A DNA stretch of 64,000 bases. Source: Desulfatibacillum sp. (GTDB lineage Bacteria > Desulfobacterota > Desulfobacteria > Desulfobacterales > Desulfatibacillaceae). The notes under the pieces were generated by a model. That model did not search any database. It was not told where the DNA came from and worked only from the letters and a program-made list of their open reading frames with translations. This document shows, piece after piece, positions 16,472-37,024 of this stretch; position 1 is the first letter of the stretch; every line of letters starts with the position of its first letter. The stretch lies in contig JAEINP010000024.1 of the NCBI GenBank assembly GCA_016342355.1, positions 1 to 64,000 of the forward strand. Reading direction: 5' to 3'. Made by a program: the position numbers and the translations under genes.

Positions 16472-16473
16472 GG

Positions 16474-18265: not shown

Positions 18266-18331
18266 GACTCCGGCGCTCAAGTGTCCCCAGGGCAGCCCTG
18301 ATTCCAGGACCGCCCCGGGATTTCTTTGTTC

Positions 18332-18715: not shown

Positions 18716-18739
18716 GTTCAGTCCTTGCGGCTGTGCCGC

Positions 18740-19195
18740 CTACCTTAACTCATTGGGCATTTCCTGCAGGTTATTCACGCTTTGCTTGAGAAAACGCTCG
18801 GTGGGGCCCAAGGCCTTGACCGATTCTATAACCTCCAACGCCACCCTCTGGAACTTGGTGGACTCTGCCGAGGAAATCCAGGAAAAATGCAGCCGGTCCC
18901 CTTCTATGCCCATGTGCTCCAGCAGATTTTTAAACAGGGCGAACTTACGGCGGGCGTAAAAATTACCCTCAATGTAATGGCAGTCCCCGGGATGACAGCC
19001 GGACACCCACACACCGTCCGCGCCATGGCGGAAAGCCGCCAGGATGAATTTGGGGCTGATTCTGCCGCTGCAGGGCACGCGGATTACCCGGAAATTCGCC
19101 GGATACTGCAGACGGCTGACACCAGCAAGGTCCGCCGCGCCATAGGTGCACCAGTTGCAGAAAAAAGCCGCTATTTTGGGTTCCCATTCAGACAT
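18740..19195 (-). CDS. MvhD/FrhD-type iron-sulfur subunit
   Basis: The product is 151 aa and matches the methyl-viologen-reducing hydrogenase delta subunit pattern: FFCNWCTYGAADLAG (Cys13, Cys16), RVPCSGRISP (Cys42) and SGCHPGDCHY (Cys67, Cys72). These cysteines bind a [2Fe-2S] cluster that passes electrons between a donor and HdrA. It starts 15 bases after the HdrD-like stop, with GAGGAG upstream, and the HdrA fragment follows. In benzoyl-CoA reductase class II (Bam) and methanogen Hdr complexes these three proteins work together. The domain is complete. Confidence 0.93.
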   Translation of the reverse strand: MSEWEPKIAAFFCNWCTYGAADLAGVSRLQYPANFRVIRVPCSGRISPKFILAAFRHGADGVWVSGCHPGDCHYIEGNFYARRKFALFKNLLEHMGIEGDRLHFSWISSAESTKFQRVALEVIESVKALGPTERFLKQSVNNLQEMPNELR

Positions 19196-19210
19196 GTTGC
19201 GTCTCCTCGG

Positions 19211-20545
19211 TTATTTTTTTGCAAAGGGATCAGGGGTTCCAGGTTCTCCGGGCAGCCATACTTCCTTCAAATCGTCTCCCAGGTATTCACGCTCGTTTTC
19301 ACCCAAAATTCCCAGGGACAAGGCGACAAGCGTCCACAGGTGGAGCGTGTGGTAATCGGCTTCATGGTGCTCAGCCAAGTCATGGATCTGGGCGTGGCAG
19401 TTGTGGCAAGGGGTCACCACATAATCGGCCCCGGTCGCCATAATCTGGTCAAACTTGATCTGTCCGTACGCCCTTCTGGCGTCCGTGAAACCGGACTGAA
19501 GAAATCCGCCGCCGCCGCCGCAGCAAAAGTTGTTGGACTTGTTGGGGGTCATGTCCACAAAGTTCTCTTCGCCAACAACAGCCTTGACCACAAAACGCAG
19601 ATCATCGGCCAATTCGTCCTTGAAGCTCTTACGGATCTGGTTGCAGGGGTCCTGTACCGTGAATCTGATTTTAAGATCCTTATTCCAATCGGAATTGACT
19701 TTGAGTTTTCCCTCGCGGATCCACTTGGCGTAGTACCTGACCATGGGAGCGATTTCCAGGTCCGTCTCAATACCGTACTTCTGCTGGCCTTTCCAAATGC
19801 TGAAGGTTGAGTGGCCGCACTCGGTGTTCAGATACACCTTGGCCCCCAGATCCTTGGCGGAATCCAGGCTCATCTTGGCGATCTTTTTCCAGTTTTCGTC
19901 ATCTGCCAGGAACATGCAGTAGTTCTCGCCACCCCAGCCCGTGGTGGAATAGGTCCAATCCACGCCTGCCAGATGCAAAATCTTCCACAAGGGAATCATT
20001 TCGTCGGGCTCGGTCACGGGCTCGCGGGAATTCTGGGAAACAAAAAATTCGGCGCCCTGCTTGTCCACAGGCGCTTCCAGGTTTTCCCAGCCGGGCTGGG
20101 TTTCCCGTACTTCCTCCACCACGTCTTCCACCACAAACTGGAAATCGTCCGGAGCCGCGCCCATGGCGCTACAGGAGGAGTTACGCAGGGCCATGTCACA
20201 GCTTCCCAAGATGCCCTTGGGACGGTCTTCACGAGGCGTGAGCTTGCGGGCTTCAAACACCAGGCCGGAAATATCTATGTTCATGGGGCACACATAGGTG
20301 CACCGCTGGCACATGGAGCACATCCACACCCAGTTGGTTTTTGCGATTTCCTCATCCAGGCCGAGAGCAGCCATGCGCAGGAATTTACGGGGGTCCATGC
20401 CCTCCAAACCAGCAGCAGGGCATCCGGAAGCACAGGCTCCACAGGTCAGGCATAAATTAAGGTTTCCACCTTGAGGCAGGATTTCCATTACCTTATTGAT
20501 GAAAGCGCTTTTTTTTCTTTTTCCAATAACAATAGGCGATTCCAC
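19211..20545 (-). CDS. HdrD-like Fe-S protein (ferredoxin plus CCG domains)
   Basis: The product is 444 aa. The N-terminal HdrC-like part has two 4Fe-4S motifs, CLTCGACASGCP (32-43) and CSMCQRCTYVCP (76-87). The C-terminal HdrB-like part has one complete CCG motif: Cys301, Cys341-Cys342 followed by a glycine run, then PCHNCH (Cys380, Cys383). The first CCG repeat expected in HdrD is degenerate (only NYC and TEC remain). Relatives include HdrD and BamD and pass electrons to disulfides or partner complexes. The start is GTG, with AGGAG six bases upstream. First gene of the operon, with its own promoter. Confidence 0.9.
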   Translation of the reverse strand: MESPIVIGKRKKSAFINKVMEILPQGGNLNLCLTCGACASGCPAAGLEGMDPRKFLRMAALGLDEEIAKTNWVWMCSMCQRCTYVCPMNIDISGLVFEARKLTPREDRPKGILGSCDMALRNSSCSAMGAAPDDFQFVVEDVVEEVRETQPGWENLEAPVDKQGAEFFVSQNSREPVTEPDEMIPLWKILHLAGVDWTYSTTGWGGENYCMFLADDENWKKIAKMSLDSAKDLGAKVYLNTECGHSTFSIWKGQQKYGIETDLEIAPMVRYYAKWIREGKLKVNSDWNKDLKIRFTVQDPCNQIRKSFKDELADDLRFVVKAVVGEENFVDMTPNKSNNFCCGGGGGFLQSGFTDARRAYGQIKFDQIMATGADYVVTPCHNCHAQIHDLAEHHEADYHTLHLWTLVALSLGILGENEREYLGDDLKEVWLPGEPGTPDPFAKK

Positions 20546-20593
20546 AGTATTCTCCTTATGGATAGAGTCTTAGGATACAAAATCGTAAGGAAG

Positions 20594-20620
20594 ATTATAT
20601 AGATAGGATTAATCAGTCAA
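20594..20620 (-). promoter_or_regulatory. Promoter of the Hdr/double-cubane operon
   Basis: On the minus strand TTGACT (20615-20620) is followed after 15 bp by a perfect TATAAT (20594-20599). Start of transcription would be near 20587, giving a leader of about 40 bases to the GTG of the HdrD-like gene. The spacer is shorter than ideal. The surrounding A+T-rich stretch contrasts with the genes on both sides. Confidence 0.6.
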
Positions 20621-20709
20621 ATTGAAAATATCAATATATTCGACCGATTTTATTCTGTTGGTCTATTTGAGGAATAGATTGTGGGAATATCAGCGGGTTG
20701 CAGGTCGGA

Positions 20710-21264
20710 TCAAACGCCGGAACAGGAAGAAATTATTCGGGAAAGAATGCTTTTCTCCCGGAGGATTTCGGCGACGGAGGCTGGAACCAGATGTTTCCAG
20801 GGAGAGTTGACTGCCATGGCATGGCGCACCTGGGTGGAGGTGATGCCCTTTTGGTCCGCAGGACGACGCCACAGGATATCCACAGTGAGTCCGTGCTCCT
20901 GAAACATAGCCAGTTTGCGCTCTCCCCAGGCATCGTAAATGGTGAGGAAAAAGGTGGCGTCCAGGGGCAGGTAATTGGCCCAGAGTTCCGGCAAGTTGAC
21001 GGGAAAGGGAACCACGGAAAAAGCGCCCGGCGGCAGGCCTTCTTCCATTAAGGCTGCGCTCACCATGCAGTAGCGTTCCCAGTAGGTGAGAGGGTTTGAG
21101 GCAGGCGCGCTTCTGGCAGGATCGGCGCCATCTTCCCGTGTGAGGCCCGGGTCCGGGTTGGTTATGCCCACCACAAGGTGGGAGCATTTTTTCGCTCCAG
21201 CCAGGATGTACTTCATGTGGTCATTGTGCAGGATTTGGAATCTTCCGTGTACCACTCCGGTCAT
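20710..21264 (-). CDS. Nucleotidyltransferase of the NadM/cytidylyltransferase fold
   Basis: The product is 184 aa. The start VHGRFQILHNDHMKYI contains the HxxH nucleotide-binding motif of the adenylyl/cytidylyl-transferase superfamily. The second conserved block is ITSTQVRHAM (the ISSTxxR motif). Archaeal-type NadM (nicotinamide-nucleotide adenylyltransferase) is similar in size and motifs, so NAD synthesis is possible. GGGAGA precedes the ATG. It follows the phosphoglycerate-mutase-like gene by 44 bases and is likely co-transcribed with it. Substrate assignment is uncertain. Confidence 0.8.
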   Translation of the reverse strand: MTGVVHGRFQILHNDHMKYILAGAKKCSHLVVGITNPDPGLTREDGADPARSAPASNPLTYWERYCMVSAALMEEGLPPGAFSVVPFPVNLPELWANYLPLDATFFLTIYDAWGERKLAMFQEHGLTVDILWRRPADQKGITSTQVRHAMAVNSPWKHLVPASVAEILREKSILSRIISSCSGV

Positions 21265-21308
21265 ATATGTCTCCCACTTAGCCTTTGGTTCTGTGGCAGA
21301 AAAAGGCC

Positions 21309-22622
21309 CTATTTCAAAATGGTAAAAGATTCCCGGTTCCCCGGCCAGTAGGGCTGGTCTTCCGGGGTATCCATGATGCCCTGGAGTTTGGACATCTCCA
21401 GGTTGTCAAGGATGGTCAACAGGCATTCCTTGCCGCGCAATTGACCCAAGGCGCCCCGGGCGCAGGCGATTTCGCTGAAAGCCCGCACATGGTCCAGCCG
21501 CACGCCCTGGCCGTGTAATGCCAGAGGCACGGTCTCCCCGGAATGGATCAGGGGGCCGGAGGATGGGGTGGAATGATCCGAGGTGACAACAAGAAGTATA
21601 TCCGGGTCATCCAGGTGGCCTGCCAATGCCTGCTCCAGGCCCTTGTCCAGGGCTTCGATAGCCCGCATTTTCAGGTTGGGGTCTTTTTTGTGGGCCGCCT
21701 CGTCCAGGACTTTGGTATGCACATGGATCAGCCCGTATTGGCCGGATTTTTCCAGGGCGATGCCCACCCTCCGGGCCAGGTCGTCGCCGGGTTGGTCCGT
21801 GTCGCTGTCCTTAATCACGTCCATGTCCAAAAAACGGGCTAGGCCGTGATACACGGCCCCGGACGATATGCTCAATCCGCGAATTCCCCACCGGTGATGG
21901 AAAGGCTCCACACCGGAATATGCCCCGGCCCTTTGGGTGACCACGGCGTTGGCAGGGGATTCCCCCCTGGCGCAGCGGTTTTTATTCACAGGATGGTCAT
22001 CCAATTTCAGATGGGCGAAACGCAGGTAAGCGTACAAGGCCTTGGCGGTTTTCCTGGCCTTGGGATCATGGGCCTGGGACGCCCAGGGCCGAACAGCGCA
22101 CAAGGGGCCGCCGGGCATCATGGTGTCGCTATCCGTAATAAACCGGGAGACCGGCCCTCCGGCAACCAGAATACCGTCCACACCCCTGGTTTGATGAAAC
22201 CGGAACCAAATCCCATCAGCCCGCCAGTTCTCCACGGCCCGAATGAGTTCGGCGGCCTCTTCGGGACTGGCGTCCGGCCTTTTTTCCTCCAGAATCAACG
22301 CGCCATGGTGCACACTCACATACGAAAGATGGGCCAACAAGGCCACTTCCCCCGGGTGCATATCCAAACCCCAGCCCAGGCCTTCCAAAAAGCCACGGCC
22401 AGGAAACTCTTCCGGCTGGTACCCGAACATGGCGAAATGGGCGTTCTCGCTGGGCAAAGCCTGTCCCTGAAGGGCTGCATGAAAGGCCCCGCAGGACCCT
22501 TGGGCGGCAATCCGGTCCAAAAAAGGCGTGTGAGCTGCCTCCAAGGGAGTGCCATTACCCAAAAAAGAATAGGACCGGTCGCCCAGACCGTCCAGTAATA
22601 TGAGGATGCATGTCTTAGCCAT
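21309..22622 (-). CDS. Cofactor-independent phosphoglycerate mutase-like metalloenzyme
   Basis: The product is 437 aa in the alkaline phosphatase superfamily. It begins CILILLDGLGDR (first metal-ligand aspartate) and continues TPLEAAHTPFLDRIA, the usual opening of apgM-type phosphoglycerate mutases. The C-terminal half has LVVTSDHSTPSSGPLIHSGE, which supplies Asp, His and Ser ligands. apgM interconverts 2- and 3-phosphoglycerate; related proteins have other substrates. ATG at 22622 is preferred to the TTG two codons upstream. The following nucleotidyltransferase is co-oriented. Confidence 0.82.
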   Translation of the reverse strand: MAKTCILILLDGLGDRSYSFLGNGTPLEAAHTPFLDRIAAQGSCGAFHAALQGQALPSENAHFAMFGYQPEEFPGRGFLEGLGWGLDMHPGEVALLAHLSYVSVHHGALILEEKRPDASPEEAAELIRAVENWRADGIWFRFHQTRGVDGILVAGGPVSRFITDSDTMMPGGPLCAVRPWASQAHDPKARKTAKALYAYLRFAHLKLDDHPVNKNRCARGESPANAVVTQRAGAYSGVEPFHHRWGIRGLSISSGAVYHGLARFLDMDVIKDSDTDQPGDDLARRVGIALEKSGQYGLIHVHTKVLDEAAHKKDPNLKMRAIEALDKGLEQALAGHLDDPDILLVVTSDHSTPSSGPLIHSGETVPLALHGQGVRLDHVRAFSEIACARGALGQLRGKECLLTILDNLEMSKLQGIMDTPEDQPYWPGNRESFTILK

Positions 22623-22746
22623 GGTCAATCATAGCACGGTCCTGGAGTGGCGTTCAACGCTATTCATTGCCCGGGCCTATTGTCATGGCCGGAAAGATAG
22701 AAATTATCAATTTGATCTATATATAAACTATTACTATATTAATAGC

Positions 22747-23382
22747 ATGATTATGGACCTTCATGTACATACCACGGTTTCCCCGTGCAGCAACCTTACC
22801 ATGGACGAAATCCTGGCCAATGCCCGATATTTGGGCCTGGACGGGGTGTGTGTTACAGATCATTATCGGGCCGGGGAATTATCGTCGAAAGGCGACTTTG
22901 TGTGCAACGGCCTAGTGGTCATTGTGGGAACGGAATACGCCACTCCTCAGGGCGATTTGTTATTATTCGGGCCGCATCTTGATTTTCCCGACAATTTGTC
23001 TGCCCCGGAGGTCTTGTCCAGGGTGGAGGCCCAGGGCGGCGCCGGTGTGCTAGCCCATCCTTTTCGTAAAAAAAGGCCGGGGGCTGAGGAATTGGTATCC
23101 CGGGGATTGGTCACCGCAGTGGAAGAGATCAACGGCAGGAATACCCCGGAGGAAAACCTGAGGGTTGCTGGCTGGCTTGCCAAATATCCTCTCCACACCG
23201 TGGCTGGCAGCGACGCCCATTCCCTGGAGGAATTGGGCCGGGTGGCGACCTACTTTTCCAGGCCCGTCCATGGATGGAAGGACTTGGCAGCGGCCCTAAA
23301 GGCCGGAGACATGATTCCCCAAATCAGCGCAAAGTTGCCTCCAATTTTGCATCAAACCAACAATCAGTTGAACTGCGCCTGA
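22747..23382 (+). CDS. PHP-domain metal-dependent phosphoesterase
   Basis: The product is 211 aa. It starts MDLHVHTTVSPCSN, the first PHP metal-binding motif (HxH), and continues with VTDHYRAGEL, GTEYATPQGDLLLFG, LAHPFRKKR and AGSDAHSLEELG, the other PHP blocks. PHP enzymes use three metal ions to hydrolyse phosphate esters; small stand-alone members act on nucleotide or sugar phosphates. ATG at 22747 or 22753 is the likely start; neither has a clear ribosome-binding site, and longer in-frame sequence upstream is not PHP-like. Divergent from the phosphoglycerate mutase-like gene. Confidence 0.85.
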   Translation: MIMDLHVHTTVSPCSNLTMDEILANARYLGLDGVCVTDHYRAGELSSKGDFVCNGLVVIVGTEYATPQGDLLLFGPHLDFPDNLSAPEVLSRVEAQGGAGVLAHPFRKKRPGAEELVSRGLVTAVEEINGRNTPEENLRVAGWLAKYPLHTVAGSDAHSLEELGRVATYFSRPVHGWKDLAAALKAGDMIPQISAKLPPILHQTNNQLNCA

Positions 23383-23450
23383 CCCTGGTTTACAATCCTT
23401 CCTTATAGATTCGTTTTTCCTATTCCCTCAAAGACAGGCCAGGACACTTT

Positions 23451-24338
23451 ATGCCCTTATCCTTCGAGCCCATTCGTTTGGACCAACAAGAACGGTATCG
23501 CGTTTTTCTGAAACAATGCCCCGGACCCGGTTCGGAATACAGTTTTATTAACCTGTTCGCGTGGCAGGAGGCCCATGGTCTGGAATGGGCCTGGACCGAT
23601 ACCCTGGTGTGGATTCGCCAGACCATACCCACCACGGTGTATTGGGCGCCCATGGGAGACTGGCAGGCTATAAACTGGCGCAAAGCATTGGATAGCCTGG
23701 AAGCCCCCTCCCCTTTTTCAAGGGCGCCGGAACAACTTGCCATGGTGTGGAAAAACAGCGCGGAAATCAATATGCAGTTGGAAGAGGACCGGGACCAGTG
23801 GGACTATTTGTATTCCGTGCCTGAGTTGGCGGCCCTTGGCGGCAAAAAATATCACTCCAAGAAAAATCACCTGAACCGCTTTTTAAAAACCTATGCATCC
23901 CGCTACGTAGCCATGGATGCTTCCAACGCCAGGGAGGCTTCAAGGCTTCAGGAATCCTGGTGCCAATGGCGGGATTGCGAGTCCCAGGAGTCCCTGGCCA
24001 ATGAAAACCAGGGGATATTTAAGGTGTTGGAGCATTGGGAATCGTTTCCCAACATCCTGGGCGGCCTTCTGTTCGTGGGGGACGATCTGGCCGCCTACAC
24101 CATTGGCGAAGCCTTTACGCCTGATATGCTGCTCATTCATTTTGAAAAAGGATCTCCCGATTACAACGGCTCCTACCAGGCCATCAATCAGCAGTTTCTG
24201 GAAAACGAGGGCGGAAACCATCCCCTGGTGAACCGGGAGCAGGACACGGGCGACGAGGGCATGCGCAAGGCCAAGATGTCTTATAATCCGGTGGATTTTG
24301 TGCGGAAATATTCGGGACATTTCGTTGGTCTGAAATAA
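23451..24338 (+). CDS. DUF2156 / phosphatidylglycerol lysyltransferase-like protein
   Basis: The product is 295 aa. It resembles the C-terminal acyltransferase-like (GNAT-related) domain of lysyl-phosphatidylglycerol synthase (DUF2156): LKQCPGPGSEYSFINLFAW near the N terminus, LGGKKYHSKKNHLNRF (about 130-145), and the C-terminal INQQFLENEGGNHPLVNRE and KAKMSYNP blocks. No membrane segments are present, so it lacks the flippase part of MprF and is probably soluble. Substrate may be an aminoacyl-tRNA or acyl donor. It is followed by a strong bidirectional terminator. Confidence 0.8.
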   Translation: MPLSFEPIRLDQQERYRVFLKQCPGPGSEYSFINLFAWQEAHGLEWAWTDTLVWIRQTIPTTVYWAPMGDWQAINWRKALDSLEAPSPFSRAPEQLAMVWKNSAEINMQLEEDRDQWDYLYSVPELAALGGKKYHSKKNHLNRFLKTYASRYVAMDASNAREASRLQESWCQWRDCESQESLANENQGIFKVLEHWESFPNILGGLLFVGDDLAAYTIGEAFTPDMLLIHFEKGSPDYNGSYQAINQQFLENEGGNHPLVNREQDTGDEGMRKAKMSYNPVDFVRKYSGHFVGLK

Positions 24339-24375
24339 AAAACGGGCCGCAGATTTCACGGCCCGGCTTTTTTTG
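24336..24375. terminator. Bidirectional intrinsic terminator
   Basis: A perfect 7-bp stem (CGGGCCG 24343-24349 with CGGCCCG 24359-24365) is preceded by an A run and followed by seven T. It serves the convergent DUF2156 gene (plus) and EF-G gene (minus). Confidence 0.92.
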
Positions 24376-24388
24376 AAATTATTTCCTG

Positions 24389-26422
24389 TTAGGCCTTATC
24401 GAAATGGGAGAACTTCATGGTGAATGTGCCCCGTCCCTGGGTGGCGGACCGGAGGTCCGTGGAATAGCCGAACATCTTGGACAAGGGAGCTACGGCCTTG
24501 ATGATTCCCACGCCGATTGACGACTCTATGGCCTCGATTTTGCCGCCCCGGGAGTTGATGTCCCCAATCACCTCGCCGGTATTGGCTTCCGGGGCGATGA
24601 TTTCCAGGTCCAGGATGGGTTCCAGGAGCGAACATTCCCCGGCCAAAAGGGCTTCGTTAACGGCCATGGAAGCTGCCACCCGAAAGGCCAGTTCTGTTCC
24701 CGCCCCTTCCCGATATTCACCGCCCACCAGGGTGGCGCCCACGTCCAAAACCGGATAACCCATGACCACGCCGCTCCCAAAGGCTTCCATAACGCCTTTT
24801 TCCACCAATGGGATGAGATGCTCCGGGATGGCCGAAACTGAAGGGGCCACGCGAAAGGTGTTGCCCGCGCCTCTGGACAAAGGCTCCAGGCGGATGTCCA
24901 CCCGGGCGAAATGGTTTGCCCCCGCCACTTCCCGGTCAAAAATCCCGATACCCGTGGCCTTTTTGCCAATGGTTTCCCGATAGACCACCTGGGGCTTGCC
25001 CACGTTGACCTGGGTATTGAATTCCCGCTGCATGCGGCTGACCAGGATTTCCAGGTGCAGCTCGCCCATACCTGAGATAATGGTCTGGCCGGTTTCCTCG
25101 TCTTCCCTGACTTTGAAGGTAGGGTCTTCGGCCATGAGCTTTTCCAGGACTGAGGCCAGCTTATCCTGATCGCTGTGGGTCTTAGGCTCCACGGCAATGG
25201 ATATAACCGGCTCGTAGGTCTCTATCCGCTCCAGCATCACGGGTTTTTCCATAGTGCACAGGGTGTCGCCTGTGGAGGAATCCTTCATTCCGACTATGCC
25301 GACAATGTTTCCCGCCCCTGCCTGTTCTATGCGTTCCCGCTTGTTGGCGTGAATGGCCAGAATGCGGGTGGGTTTTTCTTTGCGGCCCAAAGTGGGGTTG
25401 TACACGTCCTGCCCGGCAATCAGCTTGCCGCTGTAAATGCGGGCGAAGCAGAGTTTTCTTCCCTCGGGCATGGATACCTTAAAGATAAGCGCGGCCAGGG
25501 GGTCCTTTTCCGAAGTCCCGCAAATGATTTCCTCTTTGGTTTCAGGATGAACCCCTTTGGCCGGAGGAACTTCTTTGGGACTGGGCAGATAGGCCACAAT
25601 GGCGTCCAGCAAGGGCTGGACTCCCAGGTTCCGCAGTGCAGAGCCGCACAGAACCGGCACCGCGCCGGACTCGATGGTCGCCTTTCTGATGGCCTGGATC
25701 AGCATATCCCGGGGAACCTCCCCTCCTTCCAGGTATATTTCCATGAGTTCATCGTCGAACTCGGCCACGTCTTCCACGAGCTTTTCCAGGTATTCCCGGG
25801 CCTCGTCAGCCAAGTCGTCGCTGATAGGCCCACGCTGAAAGCTGGAGCCCTGGCTATTGTCGTCCCAGGTGATCTGCTCCATGTCCAGTAGGTCTATAAC
25901 TCCCTTGAACGTGTCTTCTGCGCCCACGGGAATCTGGAGCAAAATGGGTTTTGCGCCCAGGTTTTCCTTCAGTTCCTTTACCGTGCCGAAAAAATCAGCC
26001 CCGATACGGTCCATTTTATTGACAAAGGCTATCTTGGGAACATGGTATTTGTCCGCCTGACGCCAAACGGTTTCGGACTGGGGTTGGACCCCGCCCACGG
26101 CGCAAAACACGCCAATGGCCCCGTCCAGCACCCGGAGGGAACGTTCCACCTCGATGGTAAAATCCACATGTCCAGGAGTATCGATCACATGAATTTCATG
26201 GTCTTTCCAGTGGCAGGTGGTGACCGCCGAGGTAATGGTGATGCCCCGTTCCTGTTCATCGGTCATCCAGTCCATGACAGCCTCGCCGTCGTGGACCTCC
26301 CCGAGCTTGTGGGAGCGTCCCGTGTAGAACAGGATGCGTTCCGTCACGGTGGTTTTTCCAGCGTCAATATGGGCGATAATGCCGATATTGCGCATTTTGC
26401 TTATGGCTATTTTATTACTCAT
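24389..26422 (-). CDS. Elongation factor G (probable second paralogue)
   Basis: The product is 677 aa, full length for EF-G. The GTPase domain shows AHIDAGKTT (P-loop), DEQERGITI (switch I/G2), DTPGHVDFT (G3) and NKMDR (G4). Domains II-V follow, ending in the EF-G C-terminal region [19 protein letters not shown] drives translocation and, with RRF, ribosome recycling. It is not in an rpsL-rpsG-tuf cluster but after a GerMN-domain gene, whose stop it overlaps by four bases. That suggests it is an extra EF-G (EF-G2 type) and not the main str-operon copy. I see no substitution that would disable GTP hydrolysis. Confidence 0.93.
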
Positions 26423-26976
26423 CGTATGATCGTCATGTCCGCGCCAAATGGATAGGTCAAATCCACATGGCCGCCAAGGGTTTCAGCTTCATTTCCGTTT
26501 ATCAGGATCTTTACGGAGGAAATATCCTGAACATTCAGGCACAGGGTGTTGACCAGGGCGAAAACGGTCATGTATTCCGCCTCGGCGCTACCGGGCAGTC
26601 CCCGGAATATTTCCTGAGAAAAATCAACATAGCACAGCCCGTCCCTAACATAAACGGCCAAAAGCCGCGAATCTTTTGGGATGCACCGTATCCCGGAACC
26701 CCGTGGGCCGTCCAGGAGTTCCTCAATCAGGGTTTTGGCAAAAAGGGCCGGAGTCAGGCGGTTTTCCACCACCCTTTCTTCCGCCGAAAGAAAATACCCT
26801 TTGGGATTGATGAAATACAGGTGGGCGACGGTATTTTCCCCTTCCAAAATTCTATCCTCCGGAAAGGTTGATCCCTGGTTTTCCGGGCCAGCAAGGGGCT
26901 TTCCCGGGAAAGAAACCGCACCCAGGGCCAGCATAATTCCCAGGGCCGCTACCGTCTTTATCCACCGCAGTTGCAT
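26419..26976 (-). CDS. Secreted GerMN-domain protein
   Basis: The product is 185 aa. A signal peptide (residues 1-29, hydrophobic [14 protein letters not shown]) is followed by a GerMN domain: [13 protein letters not shown], then [28 protein letters not shown] and [11 protein letters not shown]. No lipobox cysteine is present. GerMN proteins bind peptidoglycan-associated partners in spore formers and appear as envelope proteins in Gram-negatives; the role here is unknown. It is first in a two-gene unit with EF-G and is preceded by a TTGACT-like promoter flanked by a perfect inverted repeat. Confidence 0.82.
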
Positions 26977-27059
26977 GGGATTTCCCTATTAATTCAGGTC
27001 AGTCATTCCAGGCGGCATCCGTCCGGACCCTTGCCCGAATGGTTTGTGATTTCTATGTT

Positions 27060-27088
27060 ACCTGCCCCGCAAAGTCAAGGGGGCAGGT
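27060..27088 (-). promoter_or_regulatory. Perfect inverted repeat spanning a -35 element
   Basis: ACCTGCCCC and GGGGCAGGT form perfect 9-bp arms, 11 bases apart. On the minus strand TTGACT lies in the loop and TAGAAA follows 17 bp later, so the repeat straddles the likely promoter of the GerMN/EF-G unit. It may be an operator or, on either strand, a terminator-like hairpin without a T tract. Confidence 0.5.
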
Positions 27089-27284
27089 GAACAGACCTGG
27101 TAACAGCCAACAAAACCTGAGCAATGCCTGTCCGACCCATATTTGGGGTTTTATGTGTAAAAGATAATACTCCAATTCCCGGGAACAAGGCGGGCTTGAT
27201 ATTAAAGTTTCATGCAGGGATATCATTTGATCCCAGCTTGTTAAGGATTATGTCACGGTGTTTGAATTTTTGGCGCGGGCTGGA

Positions 27285-27327
27285 CTGATACCAAATTGCG
27301 TTCACAAAAGTAGATACGAATTAGGGG
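27285..27327 (-). repeat. Second dispersed repeat (43 bp), copy 2
   Basis: Inverted copy of the 74-116 block, with about three mismatches; reads CCCCTAATTC to TTGGTATCAG on the minus strand. It lies 30 bases before the ATPase gene scar. Confidence 0.7.
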
Positions 27328-27356
27328 AAAGCCTTTATGAAAATGACAGGCTAACC

Positions 27357-27471
27357 ATGGTTTTTGCAGGTCCGGAGATTGGTTTCCGAACAACCGGAGA
27401 TGACAGGCGCTTGGGGAGCCGCCATCTATGGGGCCTCCAAAGCGGAAGCCCACTTGACCGCTTCCAGATAG
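27357..27471 (+). pseudogene. Deletion scar of a BcrAD/BadFG-type ATPase gene
   Basis: The plus strand starts with a near-copy of the ATPase gene start (ATG then codons for VFAGPEIG; compare MVFAGLDIG of the gene at 15665-16471). It then jumps, out of frame, to the C-terminal coding sequence: SEQPEMTGAWGAAIYGASKA and EAHLTAS, ending TAG at 27471. This matches the C terminus of the intact gene (PEQPEMTGALGAALYGASKA) almost residue for residue. About 220 internal codons are missing. The last 46 bases overlap, on the other strand, the 3' end of the EAL-HDOD gene. Confidence 0.85.
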
Positions 27472-28640
27472 CTGGCAGGGACGTATTGTTCAGGAACCTG
27501 GAGTTCCCGAGCCAACTTGTGCACCATATCCCACTGCCCCCTTTCGTAATTGCAAACCAGGTCAAGGAATACAGCCACGCCGCCTGTCCCCTTGATTAAG
27601 GCATCTGTAATTCTGGTATCCAGGGGGAGTTTTTGCAGGCAGTTTTCCATGGTGTCATCCAGTAAGGCGTCTATGTACGAAAACAGCCCTAATGTGAACA
27701 AATCGGCGCCCAATTTATTATTGCCGGAGGAGTACTGCCCCAGGAGGTCGCAGAATCTGGCGCGTATGGCTGAGGCGCGCACCAGTTCCTCGGGTTTGTC
27801 CGAACCCAGCTGGTTCATGATTAACAGAGATGCAAACCGCCTGATGGCGTCCAGGCCCAAAAGGCTGCACGCATGGCCGATGGAAGAAATCTTCTGCATC
27901 GTGGCAAAATAGGCGGAATTGATATAACGCAGCAATTTGTACGAGATCCCGGCGTCCCTTGATATGAGCAACTCCAATTCATTTAGGGACAAATTGGGAT
28001 TGCTCATCTTTGCCATGATGGCGAGCAAATTGATTTTCAGGGGAGGGATGCCCATGGATTGCATGATGGCTGGTTTGGAAAAAAAATACCCCTGAAAGTA
28101 TTCAAAACCCATTTCAAGGTATTTTTTAAACTCCTCGTGAGTTTCCACCTTTTCAGCCAAAAGGCGGACAGGATAACAAGATACCTTGGCCATCATCCTT
28201 TCCAATTCCGCCCCGGACATGGCGCGGACATCAAACTTGACGATGTTCGCAATTTCCAGCAACGGATACCATTCCGGCGTCAGAACAAAATCATCCAGGG
28301 CGAATCGCACCCCTTTGTGGGCCATGTCTCTGCATGCGTCAACCAGTTCAGGTGTCGGATTGACGTGTTCAAGGATTTCCACAACCAACCGTGTGTGAGG
28401 CAGGTGAAGGGGAACTTTTTGCACAAGCATGTTTTCGGGGAAATTGACAAAGGCCCTGGAGTTTCCCGCCAGGTTTTCCAGGCCTACTGTGAGGAAGCTG
28501 TCCGATAACAACCGGTTGGTGGCTGTTTCTTGATCCATGTCAGGAAAAAAATTTTCCATGCTGGTGCGAAACAGAAGTTCGTACCCGAACACTCTTTGTT
28601 TCCTGTCCAGAATGGGTTGCCTGGCCACGTATGCTTTCAT
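27426..28640 (-). CDS. EAL-HDOD signalling protein (YuxH type)
   Basis: The product is 404 aa. Residues 1-195 are an EAL-like domain opening YVARQPILDRKQRVFGYELL, with RFALDDFVL and LLAEKVETHEEF as later blocks. The catalytic EAL glutamates are replaced, so c-di-GMP hydrolysis is unlikely. Residues 200-395 are an HDOD domain (ISRDAGISYKLLRYINSAYF). Such proteins transmit signals in motility and stress control. The last 15 codons are read antisense through the ATPase scar (EAVKWASALEAP is complementary to its 3' end), so the C terminus may have been extended by that sequence. The CheD-HDOD gene lies immediately upstream. Confidence 0.9.
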   Translation of the reverse strand: MKAYVARQPILDRKQRVFGYELLFRTSMENFFPDMDQETATNRLLSDSFLTVGLENLAGNSRAFVNFPENMLVQKVPLHLPHTRLVVEILEHVNPTPELVDACRDMAHKGVRFALDDFVLTPEWYPLLEIANIVKFDVRAMSGAELERMMAKVSCYPVRLLAEKVETHEEFKKYLEMGFEYFQGYFFSKPAIMQSMGIPPLKINLLAIMAKMSNPNLSLNELELLISRDAGISYKLLRYINSAYFATMQKISSIGHACSLLGLDAIRRFASLLIMNQLGSDKPEELVRASAIRARFCDLLGQYSSGNNKLGADLFTLGLFSYIDALLDDTMENCLQKLPLDTRITDALIKGTGGVAVFLDLVCNYERGQWDMVHKLARELQVPEQYVPASYLEAVKWASALEAP

Positions 28641-28682
28641 GCGAAAATCCCTTTTTACCCGGGTTCCAACGAAGAAAAAATC

Positions 28683-30050
28683 TTATCTTTCAGCCATTAG
28701 GGCGCCCGGCCCCAATGACAGATTAGCAGGGACAAGTTCGGCCATTTTCGGAATCATGTGGGGTCCCAGCCCCAGAGTCTTCATGGCAGGCCCCAACTCT
28801 TTGGTGCACATATTTTCCAACTCCAGGCCTGTGTTGAAACGGGACATTAACACTTCAGCCACACAAACCAGGCTGGCCATTACTTTTCCCTTTTTTGCTT
28901 CCATGGGGTTATGGTGATAACAAATGGCGGCCTGTAGCACGTTTGGTAGTTCCCAGGCTTCGGCAAGGCGCCTGCCCGCTTCCGTATGCGTTATCCCGAG
29001 CAAGTCCTGTTCCGCTTCGATAAGGGTTTTATCCTCAACCTGAGTGCGGCGATAAAAAAGCGGAAAAGCCTGGCAAACATACTGATCCAGGGCAGCCCTT
29101 CCAATATCGTGCAACAAGCCAGCCGTGTAAGCCACTTCCGGGGGCGCCACTTTGAGTTTTTTTGCAAGACTCTCACACAAGCGGGCCATGCCCACCGCAT
29201 GGTGGAACAAGCCGCCTTTGCAAAGGGAGTAGCCGTCACGATTGTGGGTGGAATAGAAGATTTCCACATAAGCGGAAACCGCTATCTGGAGCAGGGTTTT
29301 GTCTCCCAACACCAGGATGGCCTCGTCAATGGACCGTACTTTTCGCCCCAGACCGATAAACGCGGAATTGCACAGATTCAAAACCTTGGCGGCAATAACC
29401 TGGTCCTGCCGGATTTCCCGGGCAAGATCCTTCAGGTCGGACTGTTCATCCTGAATCATACGCGTTATTTTTAAAGCAATTTGGGGAATAGGGCGAACAT
29501 GACTGATTAACCCGCTCAATTCCTGGTCAGTTGGTTTTTCCAGTTTCGTCTCGGAAAAGGGCACCAGATCCTCAGGCGGGATGATTTCCGGTTCCATTGT
29601 GCTTAAATCCAGACGCAAATTGCAGGTAAAATACCCGCCTGTTTCAGAGCGGATTATGGGGATTCCTTCGAGGCTTAGGATTTGAAAGACCTTGTCTGCC
29701 GTGCGGCCGCCCACATCCAGTTCAAGATCAAGATTGGAAAGAGGGCTGACCAGGGCGCCACCGGCGACACAGGCTTCCATGCGTTTTCGGGAGGCGCCGT
29801 GCGCTTCAAGATCTGCAATAAACAAGGGAAGACCAGTACTGGCATAGCGCTCCTTGGGCCAAGCTTCCGAGTTCCCTGTAGGTTCGGCCAGAAGCAGGTG
29901 GCATATCCCTCCAATGCCTGCTTCCGCATCCCTAATTGCAACCCCAACACAAGTCCCCAAAACCGCTTGTAAAGCGGCTTTTCGCTTACCGCTGACTGTG
30001 TAGCATCCGGAATCCACGTACTCCGTGTTCAGAAACATATATTTACTCAT
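28683..30050 (-). CDS. CheD-HDOD fusion protein
   Basis: The product is 455 aa. Residues 1-160 are a CheD chemoreceptor deamidase domain: LGTCVGVAI with Cys34, GGICHLLL with His51, and a later GGALVSPLSNLDLELDVGGR block. Residues 185-450 are an HDOD domain (PQIALKITRMIQDEQSDLK, then LCNSAFIGLG and TAGLLHDIGRAAL). CheD deamidates receptor glutamines and binds CheC; HDOD domains occur in signalling proteins, usually as adaptors. Their fusion is unusual. The EAL-HDOD gene follows by 42 bases. No che genes are in the window. Confidence 0.88.
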   Translation of the reverse strand: MSKYMFLNTEYVDSGCYTVSGKRKAALQAVLGTCVGVAIRDAEAGIGGICHLLLAEPTGNSEAWPKERYASTGLPLFIADLEAHGASRKRMEACVAGGALVSPLSNLDLELDVGGRTADKVFQILSLEGIPIIRSETGGYFTCNLRLDLSTMEPEIIPPEDLVPFSETKLEKPTDQELSGLISHVRPIPQIALKITRMIQDEQSDLKDLAREIRQDQVIAAKVLNLCNSAFIGLGRKVRSIDEAILVLGDKTLLQIAVSAYVEIFYSTHNRDGYSLCKGGLFHHAVGMARLCESLAKKLKVAPPEVAYTAGLLHDIGRAALDQYVCQAFPLFYRRTQVEDKTLIEAEQDLLGITHTEAGRRLAEAWELPNVLQAAICYHHNPMEAKKGKVMASLVCVAEVLMSRFNTGLELENMCTKELGPAMKTLGLGPHMIPKMAELVPANLSLGPGALMAER

Positions 30051-30310
30051 TGTCCTTAGCCCTCACATTTTTTTAAGAGAGAATTCGGGTAATCCTAATC
30101 TCCTTGATATTTGGACAACATGCATTGATGCAAAAAACAGTCCATGTTGGCTGAAAATTTTTGAACCGGGGAATATAGTTTTCGACCCGGCGACAGAAAG
30201 GCATTCCTTGCTGTTAATGGGCTTATGAGAAAGATGAAACAAGCATTCGACGGGCTGATTTGTTCTGTATGAAGGGAGTTTCCGATAGCGAGACAGGAGA
30301 ATTGTCAAAA

Positions 30311-32437
30311 TTATGTCGAGGAAGCAATCTTTTTCCAATTGAACAACCAGGAAAGAATTTTCAGGCCAAGGACACATGCCAACACCCCCTGGATGCCGAG
30401 CCTTGGCAACATAACAAGACCCATGACCAGAGTGCCGCAGGAAGCGCCTGCCAGATCCGCCCAATAAAGATTGCCGGTAGTCTCTGTGCTCGAACCGGGG
30501 TAAAGCCGGGAGGCCGCCGCAAACTGCGCCCCTACAAACCATCCTGCAGCAATGATCAGGCAGGGAAGAACCCCGTACCCGAGAAGATACAACTGCCAGG
30601 AGCCGGAAGCATGGACACAGGCAGGACCACAGGCCAGGGCCAGCAAAGCCACCACCACCAACCCGGTTTCCCCTGCCTGGTATTGATTTATGGCTCGGGA
30701 TTTTCCTGATAGGAGTAGATATCCACCCCCGGCTGCGCCCACCAGGAAAAGGGTTATAAAGAGGCAAAGAATGGTGTACGCATAGCCATAAACCACCTGG
30801 AACAGCAGAACCAGGGCGAGTTCGATGCCCATACCCGCAAAACCCGATGTCAAAATAGTAAACCGTACACGGCTCCCAAACCCTGCCACAGCGGAAAGCC
30901 CAAGGACCACCGCCAACACCCCCCAAAACAGCCATTGGGAACTCTTGGACTTGGTCATCCACAAATCCAGCATATGGCCAAAGGCCCATGGGCTAAGATC
31001 CTGATTAACCTTGGCCTTTTCACCCTCCAGGAGCCCTGCCAGATTTTCCATTCGAAAGGGGTCTGTCATGGTCGCCAGGTCAAATCCTACAAGCTGACGC
31101 GTGGATATATTACGGTCCGCCAACTGTGCGGCGATATCCAGGAGGGGAAGGGAATCCGAGGCCAGGAAAAAATGGGTAGGACCAGGGAATACGGTCACAT
31201 GGGGAAAGACCGCGCTCACCGCTTGAAACACCGTCCGGTTCAGTGCCAGGCCTCCCTCTTCCAGATAGTTGTCAGCCCCTGCCAGGGTAAAAAAAAGGAC
31301 GCCGCCGGGTTGCAGGGCGTTTTTGGCTTCGGAAAAAAACTCCCGGGTATAGAAACGGTTAATTTGGGCGTTTTCCGGGTCGGGCAGGTCAATGATAATC
31401 ACATTGTACTCCTGCCTGGCCTGCTTGATGAACAACCGGCCATCCCCGATGTGGGGGATGACTTCCGGATGTTTCAGGCTGGAAAAAAGCCGGGAGTCCA
31501 GGTCAAGTATGGCTTTGTCCAATTCCACATAGTCGACCAGGGTTGGGGCGTGTTTGATAATTTCTTCAATGGAGCCAAATACCCCGCCTGCAACCAGCAA
31601 AACCCGGGCGCCAGGTTTGACCTGACACATGGCCGGGTGCACAAGAGCTTCCACCCCCGCCTGGTCCGACGAAAAAAGAAGGATTCCGTCCTGCCATACA
31701 TTGTATTGGGAACCGGTTTGGGTGATGGCAAGCTGACAAAAGGGGCTGTTTTTCCACACGATGATTTCCTGGCCGGGCAAACGCCATGTCCGGGAAATCG
31801 GAGATAAAACAAAGGAAAACCCAATGATGAGGGCAATGCACACACTGCAAAGCATGGAAAAGGCAGGGTAGGTTTTTCGTCCCATAACCCGGGCCGCAAT
31901 TGCATGAAGGAGCCCGAAAAAGGCCAATGTCTGCCAATGGGAGAAAAAATGAACAAAAACCAGGGAAAAAACCAAGCCCCCGGCGATGTCGCCCACAGTG
32001 TCTACAACATACACCCTGGCTGTGCCGCCCTGGTTTTCTTCCAGTTTCCCTGCCAGGGGGATCATGGCTCCGCTTACCAGCACGTAGGGAATGATGATCA
32101 GAGTCCCATACACCGTAGAGGCGGAAAGGCCCAGCATTTGCCCCCGAACCCATAGCAAGGGAAGCGCCCGGATAGCAATCATTTGACATAAAGGCAAAAG
32201 CGCCAGGACAAGATGCCCGGCAAAAATCCATTTTAAAGGATTTTGGGTTCCCTTAGCCAAGCCAGACATGACCTTGCTCCCCAGGCCTCCGGCCAAAAGC
32301 CAGATTCCCAGGGCCACGCCCACCACCAATTCGTTACCCCCGAAGGTAGACATGAATTCGCGTATCACTACAAGCTGGGTGGCGACAGAGGAACTGCCCA
32401 CAGTCAGCAGACATATGTGAAATCGGGTGAGTCTCAT
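30311..32437 (-). CDS. Membrane protein with central spermidine-synthase-like domain
   Basis: The product is 708 aa. About seven hydrophobic helices (residues 1-215) precede a Rossmann-type spermidine-synthase/methyltransferase-like domain: ARVLLVAGGVFGSIEEII, VDYVELDKAILDL, IIIDLPDPENAQINRFYT. About six more helices (residues 510-700) complete it. The family (fused MFS/SpeE-like) is widespread, with no settled function; the SpeE-like part has the propylamine-transfer fold but lacks proven activity. It lies 145 bases downstream of the HPr-domain gene and may be read-through from it. Confidence 0.82.
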   Translation of the reverse strand: MRLTRFHICLLTVGSSSVATQLVVIREFMSTFGGNELVVGVALGIWLLAGGLGSKVMSGLAKGTQNPLKWIFAGHLVLALLPLCQMIAIRALPLLWVRGQMLGLSASTVYGTLIIIPYVLVSGAMIPLAGKLEENQGGTARVYVVDTVGDIAGGLVFSLVFVHFFSHWQTLAFFGLLHAIAARVMGRKTYPAFSMLCSVCIALIIGFSFVLSPISRTWRLPGQEIIVWKNSPFCQLAITQTGSQYNVWQDGILLFSSDQAGVEALVHPAMCQVKPGARVLLVAGGVFGSIEEIIKHAPTLVDYVELDKAILDLDSRLFSSLKHPEVIPHIGDGRLFIKQARQEYNVIIIDLPDPENAQINRFYTREFFSEAKNALQPGGVLFFTLAGADNYLEEGGLALNRTVFQAVSAVFPHVTVFPGPTHFFLASDSLPLLDIAAQLADRNISTRQLVGFDLATMTDPFRMENLAGLLEGEKAKVNQDLSPWAFGHMLDLWMTKSKSSQWLFWGVLAVVLGLSAVAGFGSRVRFTILTSGFAGMGIELALVLLFQVVYGYAYTILCLFITLFLVGAAGGGYLLLSGKSRAINQYQAGETGLVVVALLALACGPACVHASGSWQLYLLGYGVLPCLIIAAGWFVGAQFAAASRLYPGSSTETTGNLYWADLAGASCGTLVMGLVMLPRLGIQGVLACVLGLKILSWLFNWKKIASST

Positions 32438-32582
32438 AAAAGGTTACGCCCGTTTCTTGGAAGGGGAGCAGGGAGATAAACAGGCGCAGTTCCGGCGCAC
32501 ACCAAAGCGGGGTTCGGCAGGCCCGATGGTGTGGTCCAAAAGCACAATCAAACAGGAAAGGCAGACGCCTGCACCTGCCCGT

Positions 32583-33890
32583 TTATTTAAGATAGCTGAG
32601 TTCTTTGGGCAAATCCACCCCCTTGCCCATGGAGTCCTCGCCATAGTTGACGCTGGCAAGGATGGCCAGATCGTGCAAAGCCCGGACATCACCGGAAAAC
32701 ATCACTTCATCCACGTTTTCCTTTTTGATTTTGCCACCGGCCCATTGCATGTCCAGCACGCTGCTTGCGTCAAATTTATCCCCGTTGACGACCATCTCCA
32801 CTTGGCCGCCATAGTGTTGTACGACCTTTGCGACCATCAGGGATGGCCGGGAGTGGAATCCTAATTTTTGAGGCACACCCACTGTAATGGAATCCCGCAG
32901 CATGTTTTCGTTCAGGACTTCCTGGGCCAGATTCATACCCTGGGTCAGGAATTCACAGACAAAAAACAAACCATAATTTACAGTGACCTCCAGGAGTTCA
33001 TCGCCGTCCACCAATTCCAAAAGCCGGTCGCTCACCTGTTTGTAAACATTTTTAAAGCCCGCGTCCAAAAGGTGCCTTTCATAATAATGGAGCAAGCCGC
33101 CCGTGAGTTCCAAAAGGTGCAGGACAATGGAGAAATAACTGCGAAAACGCTTGAGTTTGCGATTGCCAAAGCGGTAACCTCCATGGATTACATAGGAGTC
33201 AAACTCGCTTTGCAGGTTGTGGACCACCATTTCGTATTTACGAATTTGGACCTCGTTGGCCTTGTCGGGAACCAACTCCTTTATTTGCTCTATGGTTAAG
33301 GGCTCGTAAAAGGTCAGGTGATCAAAGGTGTTGCCAATTTTTAGGAACTCGCTTGCCAGGCCGACAATGCTATCTTTTTTCTGCTGCTTTTCCGCATCGT
33401 CAATGTCGGATTCCAGAATTTCATCCGTTGACACCCGGGGAAAATCAGACGGGGTAAACATGTCGTCCGGAACAGGAATATTCAAACGCCGTGCCTCTTC
33501 CAGGATGGCCGGGGCCAGTCTTTGCAAGGCCTTGGTAAGGAGCGCCAGGGCCCTTTCCCCTTGTTCATCGAAGCCTTTGGGAGATTTCAGCTCATAAAAG
33601 GGCATGCGGTTGAATATATGCTTCTGGGAATAAGCAGCTCGGGAAAGATGCCTTACGGTTGCGCTTAATTCTCTGTAATAATACCAGTTTCTATTGTTTT
33701 TAGCGCCATGGAAATCCAGCAGGTCCTCCAGCAGTTGGGAGGAGGAAATCAAAACGGAATAGAGCCTTTTGGTAAAGGTATCCCTGCCCGGCTCCACCTG
33801 GATGACATATTTACAGCACTTGAGATAATCGGCTGAAAAAAGCGCAACTTTTTCCTGAAAGGTAAGCTCCTTGGGCATGGTGTCCGTCAT
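32583..33890 (-). CDS. Large protein with C-terminal HPr domain
   Basis: The product is 435 aa. The N-terminal 345 residues are mostly helical, with no family I recognise. The C-terminal 85 residues are HPr-like: VGVPQKLGFHSRPSLMVAKV contains the phospho-acceptor His, and DASSVLDM has the regulatory-serine position intact. It starts two bases after the SufB/D stop, so it is probably co-translated with the Fe-S assembly pair. The window also encodes PTS enzyme I and a small HPr at 53-55 kb; phosphorylation of this domain by them is possible. Function unknown; a sensor linking phosphotransfer to Fe-S assembly is an attractive guess only. Confidence 0.8.
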   Translation of the reverse strand: MTDTMPKELTFQEKVALFSADYLKCCKYVIQVEPGRDTFTKRLYSVLISSSQLLEDLLDFHGAKNNRNWYYYRELSATVRHLSRAAYSQKHIFNRMPFYELKSPKGFDEQGERALALLTKALQRLAPAILEEARRLNIPVPDDMFTPSDFPRVSTDEILESDIDDAEKQQKKDSIVGLASEFLKIGNTFDHLTFYEPLTIEQIKELVPDKANEVQIRKYEMVVHNLQSEFDSYVIHGGYRFGNRKLKRFRSYFSIVLHLLELTGGLLHYYERHLLDAGFKNVYKQVSDRLLELVDGDELLEVTVNYGLFFVCEFLTQGMNLAQEVLNENMLRDSITVGVPQKLGFHSRPSLMVAKVVQHYGGQVEMVVNGDKFDASSVLDMQWAGGKIKKENVDEVMFSGDVRALHDLAILASVNYGEDSMGKGVDLPKELSYLK

Positions 33891-33892
33891 GA

Positions 33893-35065
33893 TCAGAACA
33901 TGTCCTTCTCGGTTTCGCTAATAACTTTGTCGAGCCGTTGTTTCAGGCTGGGAGGCAGGCCTTCAATATCCACGTTTAAGAAGCCCCGGACAATGGTGGA
34001 GACTGCCTCCTCCTCCGTAAGCCCCCTGGCCATGAGGTATTCGATTTCCCGGTTGTCAATTTTTCCCACAGCAGCTTCGTGGGACATTTCCACGCCAGGC
34101 ACATGGGCTTCCAACTCGGGAATGGCCAGCATGAGGCCGTCCTTGAGGATAAGCCCGTTGCATTCCAGGTGGGCCTTGACATCCGGAACCATGCCCACCA
34201 GTCTTCCTCTGGCTATGATATCTCCTCCAAAGGTGATGGCCCTGGAGATGATTTCCGCCCTGGTTTCCGGCGCTTCCAGGATCACGTTGGATCCCACGTC
34301 CAGGGTGCAGCCTTTGTCAGCCACCAGAATACTGTTGAACCGGGCCACCGCCCCTTTTCCCCTGAGATGGGTTGTGGGGGACATCTGGAGGGACCCCACA
34401 GGGCGCAGGGAAATGTAATTGGATATGAGAACCCCCCCTTCCTCCACATATCCCACGGTCCTGGGCCGGACGTTCACTTCCTTGCCCCAGTCGTGGATCA
34501 TGGTGAAAGAGAGAACCGCGCCCTTTTTGACATAAAACTCGGTGATACCCACATGGAGCCCGGAAATCAGATGAGGCGAGGTGGCGCACCCATTGATGAT
34601 GGAGAGCTGGGAGCCTTCCTCGGCAATGACCAGGTTGTGGACATTTTGAGCAAAGTTTTCCTTTTCAATATACAGGCACGACTGGACCGGCGCCTGGATG
34701 ATCTGCCCGGGATGGCTCCGAATGAAATACCCTTCGCTGGGCTGTTCATGGGCCCAGGAGGTGAACTCGTCTTTGTCCGGGTCCACACCCTGCCAGAGGT
34801 AGGAGGACAGGTCGAATTTTTCCCTGGCCTGGGAAATGGACAGTACGTCCACCCCTTTTTGGGCTGTTTTACAATGCACCACGGACTGGTCTTTGACGAT
34901 AAAGGTTCCTGAACGAAAGTTCTCCGAAGTGTCCACCCCCACGCTCAGGAACTGGTCCACGTCCACGGGATTGATAGCCCGCAGTTCCGAAAGGTAGTCA
35001 TGGCTGGTCTGGCCGGTCTGGTAATCTGCAAGACGAGGCGTCTTTTTAACGTTGTCGTTTGTCAT
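33893..35065 (-). CDS. SufB/SufD-like Fe-S assembly scaffold
   Basis: The product is 390 aa of the SufBD beta-helix family. Typical blocks include SYLWQGVDPDKDEFTSWAHE, VHNLVIAEEGSQLSIINGCA, LSFTMIHDWGKEVNVRPRTV and the C-terminal GKIDNREIEYLMARGLTEEE. SufB or SufD with SufC builds Fe-S clusters in the cytoplasm. Only one SufBD protein is encoded with SufC here, as in minimal Suf systems. The ATG overlaps the sufC stop by four bases, which fixes the start over the longer frame at 35083. Separate sufS/sufU or sufE are not seen nearby. Confidence 0.93.
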   Translation of the reverse strand: MTNDNVKKTPRLADYQTGQTSHDYLSELRAINPVDVDQFLSVGVDTSENFRSGTFIVKDQSVVHCKTAQKGVDVLSISQAREKFDLSSYLWQGVDPDKDEFTSWAHEQPSEGYFIRSHPGQIIQAPVQSCLYIEKENFAQNVHNLVIAEEGSQLSIINGCATSPHLISGLHVGITEFYVKKGAVLSFTMIHDWGKEVNVRPRTVGYVEEGGVLISNYISLRPVGSLQMSPTTHLRGKGAVARFNSILVADKGCTLDVGSNVILEAPETRAEIISRAITFGGDIIARGRLVGMVPDVKAHLECNGLILKDGLMLAIPELEAHVPGVEMSHEAAVGKIDNREIEYLMARGLTEEEAVSTIVRGFLNVDIEGLPPSLKQRLDKVISETEKDMF

Positions 35066-35811
35066 TGAGGGCACCCCACGCATTCGGCATAACCGTATTC
35101 ACGGATCCACTTGAGGATTTCCCTGGCGTTCTGGCTGCACCGGAGTACGCCTTCATACAGGACCTGGCCCCTGTCCGCGGTGATATAGTCCAGGATGTAT
35201 CCGGTATGGGTAATGACCAGACAGGATTTTTTCTCCCTTTTGGACGGAAGGCTGCATGCAGGATTTTTCACGCCGCGGTGCAGCAGACGGTTGATGGCGT
35301 CTCCCACCACAGCCATGTTTTCCAGATCCACCCCGCTTTCCGGTTCGTCCAGGAGCAGCAGGTCCGGTTCCTGGGCCTGAAGTTGGAGAAGCTCGGAGCG
35401 TTTGATTTCTCCGCCGGACAAATTTTCGTTCACGTCCCGTTCCAGAAAATCCGTAAAGGCAAGGTGTTTTGCAAGGGCATCCACGTCTGTTTCGGGATTT
35501 TTCCTGCAAATTTCCACCAGGGTGCGGGTTTTCAAACCATGGATGGTGGGAGGCCTTTGAAACAGGACGCCAATACCCAGTTCCGCCCGTTCATTGATGG
35601 GCATGTAGGTTATGTCCTGGCCTTTGAAAGTAATTTTGCCATGGGTGACCGTATAACCGGAAAAACCCATCATGGTCATCATGAGTGTGGTTTTGCCCGA
35701 CCCGTTGGGTCCAAAAAGAACATGGGTTTCCCCTGCCGGAATTTCCATATTGACGTTTTTCAGGATGGGTTTGGATCCCACCTCAACGCCCAATTCTTCA
35801 ATGAGCAACAT
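35062..35811 (-). CDS. sufC: SufC-like ABC ATPase
   Basis: The product is 249 aa. It has Walker A GPNGSGKTT, the signature NLSGGEIKRSEL, and Walker B DLLLLDEPESGVDL with the SufC-typical extension. SufC hydrolyses ATP to drive SufB/D scaffold assembly of Fe-S clusters. A short insertion near KNPACSLPSKREKKSC is unlike standard SufC. It is first in a unit with the SufBD-like gene, which it overlaps by four bases. Confidence 0.94.
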   Translation of the reverse strand: MLLIEELGVEVGSKPILKNVNMEIPAGETHVLFGPNGSGKTTLMMTMMGFSGYTVTHGKITFKGQDITYMPINERAELGIGVLFQRPPTIHGLKTRTLVEICRKNPETDVDALAKHLAFTDFLERDVNENLSGGEIKRSELLQLQAQEPDLLLLDEPESGVDLENMAVVGDAINRLLHRGVKNPACSLPSKREKKSCLVITHTGYILDYITADRGQVLYEGVLRCSQNAREILKWIREYGYAECVGCPQ

Positions 35812-35893
35812 AGCATTGGTCCTGATGAAGGTTTCTCATTTTATGGAATCTCCCCGGAAGGAGATCCCGGTTGGCCCTCTCGGGCAAGGGATA

Positions 35894-36294
35894 GCGGGTC
35901 AAAGGAGTCCGTAAGCCGAATTCTGTTCCCGGGCCGGGTTACCCCGGGCCGGGCGGCGGCCATTCATCTCTGGGCGGCGGTTACCCGACGCCTCTTGCAA
36001 CCTACCCGAGGGCTAACAGCGGGCCACTGCATGAAGCCCCCCTATTTGGTCTTGCACCGGGTGGGGTTTACCCAGCTTTCCCGGTCACCCGGGAAACTGG
36101 TGCGCTCTTACCGCACCATTTCACCCTTACCGGGCAGGCCCGTCCTAAGACGAAAACCTGCCAGGCGGTATACTTTCTGTTGCACTTGCCTTCGCGTTGC
36201 CACGACTCCGCGTTACGGAGCACCCTGCCCTATGGTGTTCGGACTTTCCTCCGGGTGGTGAAACCCGGCGGCCGCCTGGCCTCCTTTGGCCCGC
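35894..36294 (-). ncRNA. rnpB: RNase P RNA component (bacterial type A)
   Basis: The minus strand holds the conserved 5' element GGAGGAAAGTCCGAACACC and the 3' element CAGAATTCGGCTTACGGACT. The ends pair perfectly as helix P1: GCGGG and AAAGGAG near 36281-36294 pair with CTCCTTT and CCCGC at 35894-35907. Length is about 400 nt, normal for the class. RNase P trims tRNA 5' ends. The 5' end coincides with the stop codon of the zinc-ribbon gene, so its promoter must lie inside that gene, or it is processed from the mRNA. Confidence 0.95.
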
Positions 36295-37007: not shown

Positions 37008-37024
37008 AACTCCTCCGTTAAAAG

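Follow-up and report, generated by a model that had tools for sequence, protein, structure and literature searches.

A decayed ATPase gene next to an EAL-HDOD gene in Desulfatibacillum, probable original seat of a double-cubane ATPase displaced by inversion

Introduction

The window analysed here, a stretch of 64,000 nucleotides from a Desulfatibacillum draft genome of 142 contigs, contains at 27357-27471 the two ends of an ATPase gene, the intact form of which lies about 11 kb away. Did the window once hold a second double-cubane system, as the first-pass annotation suggested, or is the fossil the trace of something else? To answer, the site was compared with the intact locus, with the rest of the genome and with G001, the sole other genome of the genus compared (hereafter the congener).

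The intact ATPase (15665-16471, minus strand) is assigned to the acyl-CoA dehydratase activase family (TIGR00241, 204 bits). Its partner, the reductase at 16474-17751 on the same strand, scores 478 bits with NF040772, and is classed by this score, above the curated cutoff of 350, in the double-cubane-cluster family; the congener reductase reaches 482 bits. Upstream of the pair lies an HdrA-like protein of 127 aa (18332-18715, minus strand), which covers only positions 141-256 of the 777 of the HdrA2 model and has a ferredoxin-like CxxCxxCxxxCP end. The short form recurs in the congener with about 92% conservation, and is therefore not the product of an accidental truncation. MvhD-like and HdrC/HmcF-like proteins come after it (with 18740-19195, minus strand, in the window; the region as a whole corresponds to L032 12955-13821 in the congener).

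Results

A repeat scan of the window gave two inverted, ungapped matches between the fossil and the intact locus, with about 85% identity in both: 27324-27388 against 16440-16504 (55/65), and 27381-27464 against 15705-15788 (71/84). In 300 shuffles of the fossil region, the maxima were 34/65 and 40/84. When the site was searched by BLAST against the whole genome, E-values of 1e-13 and 6e-20 were obtained for the first and second block respectively. Both ends of the gene therefore align significantly with 15665-16471, well past a few codons, and the initial reading was correct in seeing here a double-cubane ATPase gene in decay, of which the two ends are left.

The site reads as follows on the plus strand. 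It begins with the last 10 codons of a decayed reductase gene copy, stop codon TAA included (27324-27354, matching the reverse complement of 16474-16504), in which the changes relative to the intact reductase are mostly amino-acid altering. The match to the ATPase locus thus starts 33 bp before the fossil ATPase start, inside the reductase 3′ end, and no reductase sequence was found at the fossil beyond these last 10 codons. Next come the first 11 codons of the ATPase (27357-27388, beginning MVFAGPEIGF, matching the reverse complement of 16440-16471), and then its last 28 codons with the original stop TAG at 27469-27471 (27385-27471, corresponding to the 71/84 block). In the ATPase frame, this 3′ piece translates as SEQPEMTGAWGAAIYGASKAEAHLTASR followed by the stop, its last residues being GASKAEAHLTASR, and the intact gene has PEQPEMTGALGAALYGASKAEAHLTAS there. 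The TAG stands at the same place as the stop of the intact ATPase of the congener.

The assembly is a draft and the junction at 27327 falls inside a repeated element, two circumstances in which an artefact could arise. That the fossil is an artefact or a chance similarity is nevertheless hardly credible: the E-values speak against chance, the two copies differ by 15%, unlike the product of a misassembly, and around the junction (27260-27345) the longest exact match to any compared copy of the repeat is 20 bp.

The two gene ends are joined out of frame with about 220 codons missing, as had been described, and the codon counts of the first-pass annotation are correct; 659 bp are absent, and as this number cannot be divided by three, the frame was lost. 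The two match blocks overlap by 8 bases, GGTTTCCG at 27381-27388 of the plus strand, and in the intact gene GGTTCCCG occurs at each corresponding end, at a distance of 659 bp. Both limits of the deletion coincide exactly with this 8-bp direct repeat, of which one copy was retained. Given that the intact gene region contains 13 repeat pairs of at least 8 bp, such a coincidence is not unique in kind; the junction nonetheless lies exactly on one of these pairs. The possibility that the fossil contains a functional RNA or a terminator was rejected, with no Rfam match, no terminator-like site, and a minus-strand fold only mildly better than that of shuffled sequences (z −2.2).

An intact gene with Pfam EAL and HDOD domains (27426-28640, minus strand) overlaps the fossil convergently by its last 46 bp (27426-27471). 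This overlap had been noticed in the first-pass annotation, which proposed that the decay sequence now codes the C terminus of the EAL-HDOD protein. Comparison with the congener does not support that proposal. There, the EAL-HDOD gene (L032 9132-10346, plus strand) is tail to tail with an intact ATPase gene (10301-11074, minus strand), and the two share the same 46 bp (10301-10346). The EAL-HDOD protein ends with YLEAVEWARALEAP in the congener and with YLEAVKWASALEAP in the window, and in homologues at 34-48% identity the protein stops at a similar length, where residues of a related kind are found, for instance YLDAVGWADSYHGI and YLEACNWSNALTS. Being conserved in the congener and in distant homologues, the terminus was not born of decay, and its coding role is older than the decay. 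Consistent with this, the fossil has 13 changes of its own in the 97 bases that lie outside the EAL-HDOD coding part, and none in the 36 bases within it (Fisher P = 0.02, with small numbers). Within the limits of these small numbers, the comparison supports the view that the fossil drifted except where it codes the EAL-HDOD end, which would have been kept by selection.

In the congener, the reductase gene follows immediately after the ATPase gene (L032 11077-12354, minus strand). The intact ATPase/reductase pair that one could look for at the syntenic site therefore exists, at the very place of the fossil. Family- and order-level relatives also carry the pair, and at the 5 loci read the EAL-HDOD gene was not beside it; among distant EAL-HDOD relatives examined as outgroups, none had an ATPase pair nearby. 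With one congener for comparison, the ancestral gene order is read from the fossil itself and from that genome.

Is the fossil then the remnant of a second system? A paralogous ATPase that stood at 27.3 kb and decayed would account for the presence of a decayed gene and an intact one in the same window, and about ten more distant activase relatives do exist in this genome. However, there is exactly one close pair in the congener, located at the fossil site: its closest ATPase, next to the EAL-HDOD gene, is 83% identical and the following one 46%, and for the reductase the values are 88% and 38%. In the genome under study, the ATPase search returned the gene itself (100%) and then a relative at 43%, the fossil excepted; plasmid records contained distant ATPase relatives only, at about 41% for the best. 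The 43% relative, on contig C28, is flanked by two full copies of the mobile element described below (G000:C28:103257-103413 and 105692-105849). Once the differences were polarised with the congener, 20 sites were found common to the fossil and the intact copy, against 5 common to the fossil and the congener. Barring gene conversion, this places the duplication after the split from the congener, and on sequence comparison the fossil and the intact copy are taken as sisters that diverged after that split.

The 3′ end of the intact gene points the same way. The ATPase ends with TASK in the congener and with TASR in the fossil, each followed by the stop, whereas the intact window gene ends with TASSADHAAGRPYRG. 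Without its own last codon and stop, the intact gene reads on into foreign sequence, its last 12 residues (SADHAAGRPYRG, 15665-15704) being new sequence from beyond a breakpoint at 15705. The native 3′ end, lost from the intact copy, is retained by the fossil, which indicates that it is the intact copy that moved. Together with the sister relation, the single close pair of the congener and the absence of further reductase sequence at the fossil, this makes a second system very improbable, and that part of the first reading is abandoned. We conclude that the fossil probably marks where the only close double-cubane ATPase gene of this genome originally stood, before an inversion of about 11 kb.

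The inversion itself was seen in a tblastx map. Window positions 15677-27093 are colinear with a block of the congener, as far as a Germane-domain gene, while positions 27382-37780 are colinear with the EAL-HDOD flank of the congener, in reverse. It follows that the block (15705-27093, corresponding to contig C3, 25.3-38.3 kb, of the congener) is inverted relative to the EAL-HDOD flank, with the fossil where the congener has its intact gene. The segment 15705-16504, of which the congener has a single close copy, recurs at 27324-27471 in inverted orientation, its middle lost.

Next to the fossil stands a 43-bp repeat, which the first-pass annotation had noted. It is not specific to the ATPase system. 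When its copies were aligned, they had a common outer boundary and most of them ran on into an element of about 152 bp, bordered by the TIR TACCAAGTTGC/GCAATTTGGTA and by 3-bp TNA target duplications. Within the IS5 family, one branch typically has such TNA targets. The end is present in about 25 copies in the genome, and there are at least 11 full elements. The 43-bp repeat is therefore the end of a dispersed MITE, without genes, with TIR, a target duplication and many copies, and that it lies near the ATPase copy is a coincidence. The copy at the fossil (27289-27327, plus strand) is preceded by one TGA copy of the target duplication (27286-27288) and keeps only the outer 39 bases or so of the 152, being cut at the start of the reductase remnant, where the gene fossil begins. 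This indicates that the break went through the MITE. A search with the full element gave some forty whole or partial matches in this genome, whereas in the congener all matches were weak and partial; since the MITE is, in essence, specific to this genome, the cut within it belongs to this lineage.

An inversion by homologous recombination between the 43-bp copies at 74-116 and 27285-27327 was considered and rejected, as these are ends of a dispersed MITE and no MITE sequence was found at the other junction. The copy at 74-116 is directly joined to a 77-bp repeat, at 7-83, which is found again with 84% identity at 45233-45309.

The other junction is not a simple reciprocal product. Beyond 15705, a repeat-rich region is found together with genes that are scattered over several contigs of the congener, the sequence adjacent to the Germane gene in the congener is on small contigs (C93 and C105) in this genome, and the remainder of the MITE was not found at 15705. 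Further rearrangement probably followed. The intergenic stretch at 14512-15560 is rich in repeats. A 262-bp unit stands there in direct repeat (14626-14887 and 15043-15304, 94%), and both this genome and the congener contain numerous scattered partial copies.

We propose the following sequence of events. In the ancestor, as comparison with the congener shows, the ATPase gene was tail to tail with the EAL-HDOD gene, with the 46-bp overlap. In the present lineage, the block that runs from the ATPase gene as far as the Germane-domain gene would then have been inverted. One break would have fallen at the ATPase 3′ end (15705), another close to the reductase 3′ end (the equivalent of 16504) and a third inside a MITE beyond the Germane gene. 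The 800 bp or so between the first two breaks would have been kept on both sides, as in DNA duplication associated with inversion, so that one ATPase copy was carried intact 11 kb away and the second remained attached to the EAL-HDOD gene. The sequence of the moved copy shows that it exchanged its last codon and stop for the 12 foreign residues. From the redundant copy left behind, as its junction shows, slippage or annealing between the two 8-bp repeats removed 659 bp; the copy has since drifted, except in the EAL-HDOD-coding bases, apparently kept by selection.

An alternative order of events leads to the same final layout. The ATPase end might first have been duplicated, inverted, at the far end of the block, after which homologous recombination flipped the block and the copy on the EAL-HDOD side decayed. 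Inverted repeats of about 800 bp, as the layout implies, would be good substrates for such recombination. However, this route needs two events where a single one with staggered or duplicated ends is enough, and the congener shows no trace of an ATPase copy at that end of the block; we regard it as rather improbable. An inversion duplicating its breakpoint, followed by internal deletion of the copy at the EAL-HDOD gene, is in our opinion the likely course of the ATPase relocation as a whole, and we hold it with good confidence.

Discussion

The rearrangement described here is of a known and ordinary kind, but unusually legible: almost all steps of a gene relocation are visible in the sequence, from the original seat to the inverted block, the exchanged 3′ end, the microhomology deletion and the selection on an overlapping gene. 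Its lesson is that a breakpoint duplicate is easily mistaken for a lost second system. Knowledge of double-cubane enzymes is left unchanged by the fossil. More tentatively, the convergent overlap with a living gene may have preserved only the EAL-HDOD-coding bases of the duplicate, and the new tail of the ATPase is possibly kept by selection.

Three known systems invite comparison. By score, the intact pair (15665-17751) belongs with the double-cubane-cluster anaerobic reductases and their activases (NF040772 and TIGR00241), from which the window ATPase differs by the extra 12-residue tail created by the rearrangement. The loss of the middle corresponds to deletion between short direct repeats, by replication slippage or microhomology end joining, with 659 bp removed between the GGTTCCCG copies and one copy left; the fossil differs from such deletions in nothing, and is ordinary in kind. 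Finally, there is DNA duplication associated with inversion, a process known from Helicobacter pylori (Furuta et al. 2011, as cited in PMC8963470 and PMC4671568) and also reported in Thermus tengchongensis (PMC8963470). The present case shares with it an inverted block and a segment, found once in the relative, that stands in inverted orientation at either end of the block, one copy being destroyed or altered. It differs in that the duplicate later lost its middle through an 8-bp repeat, and in that the second junction was remodelled. Because of this remodelling we call the event DDAI-like, a label that is likely rather than proven.
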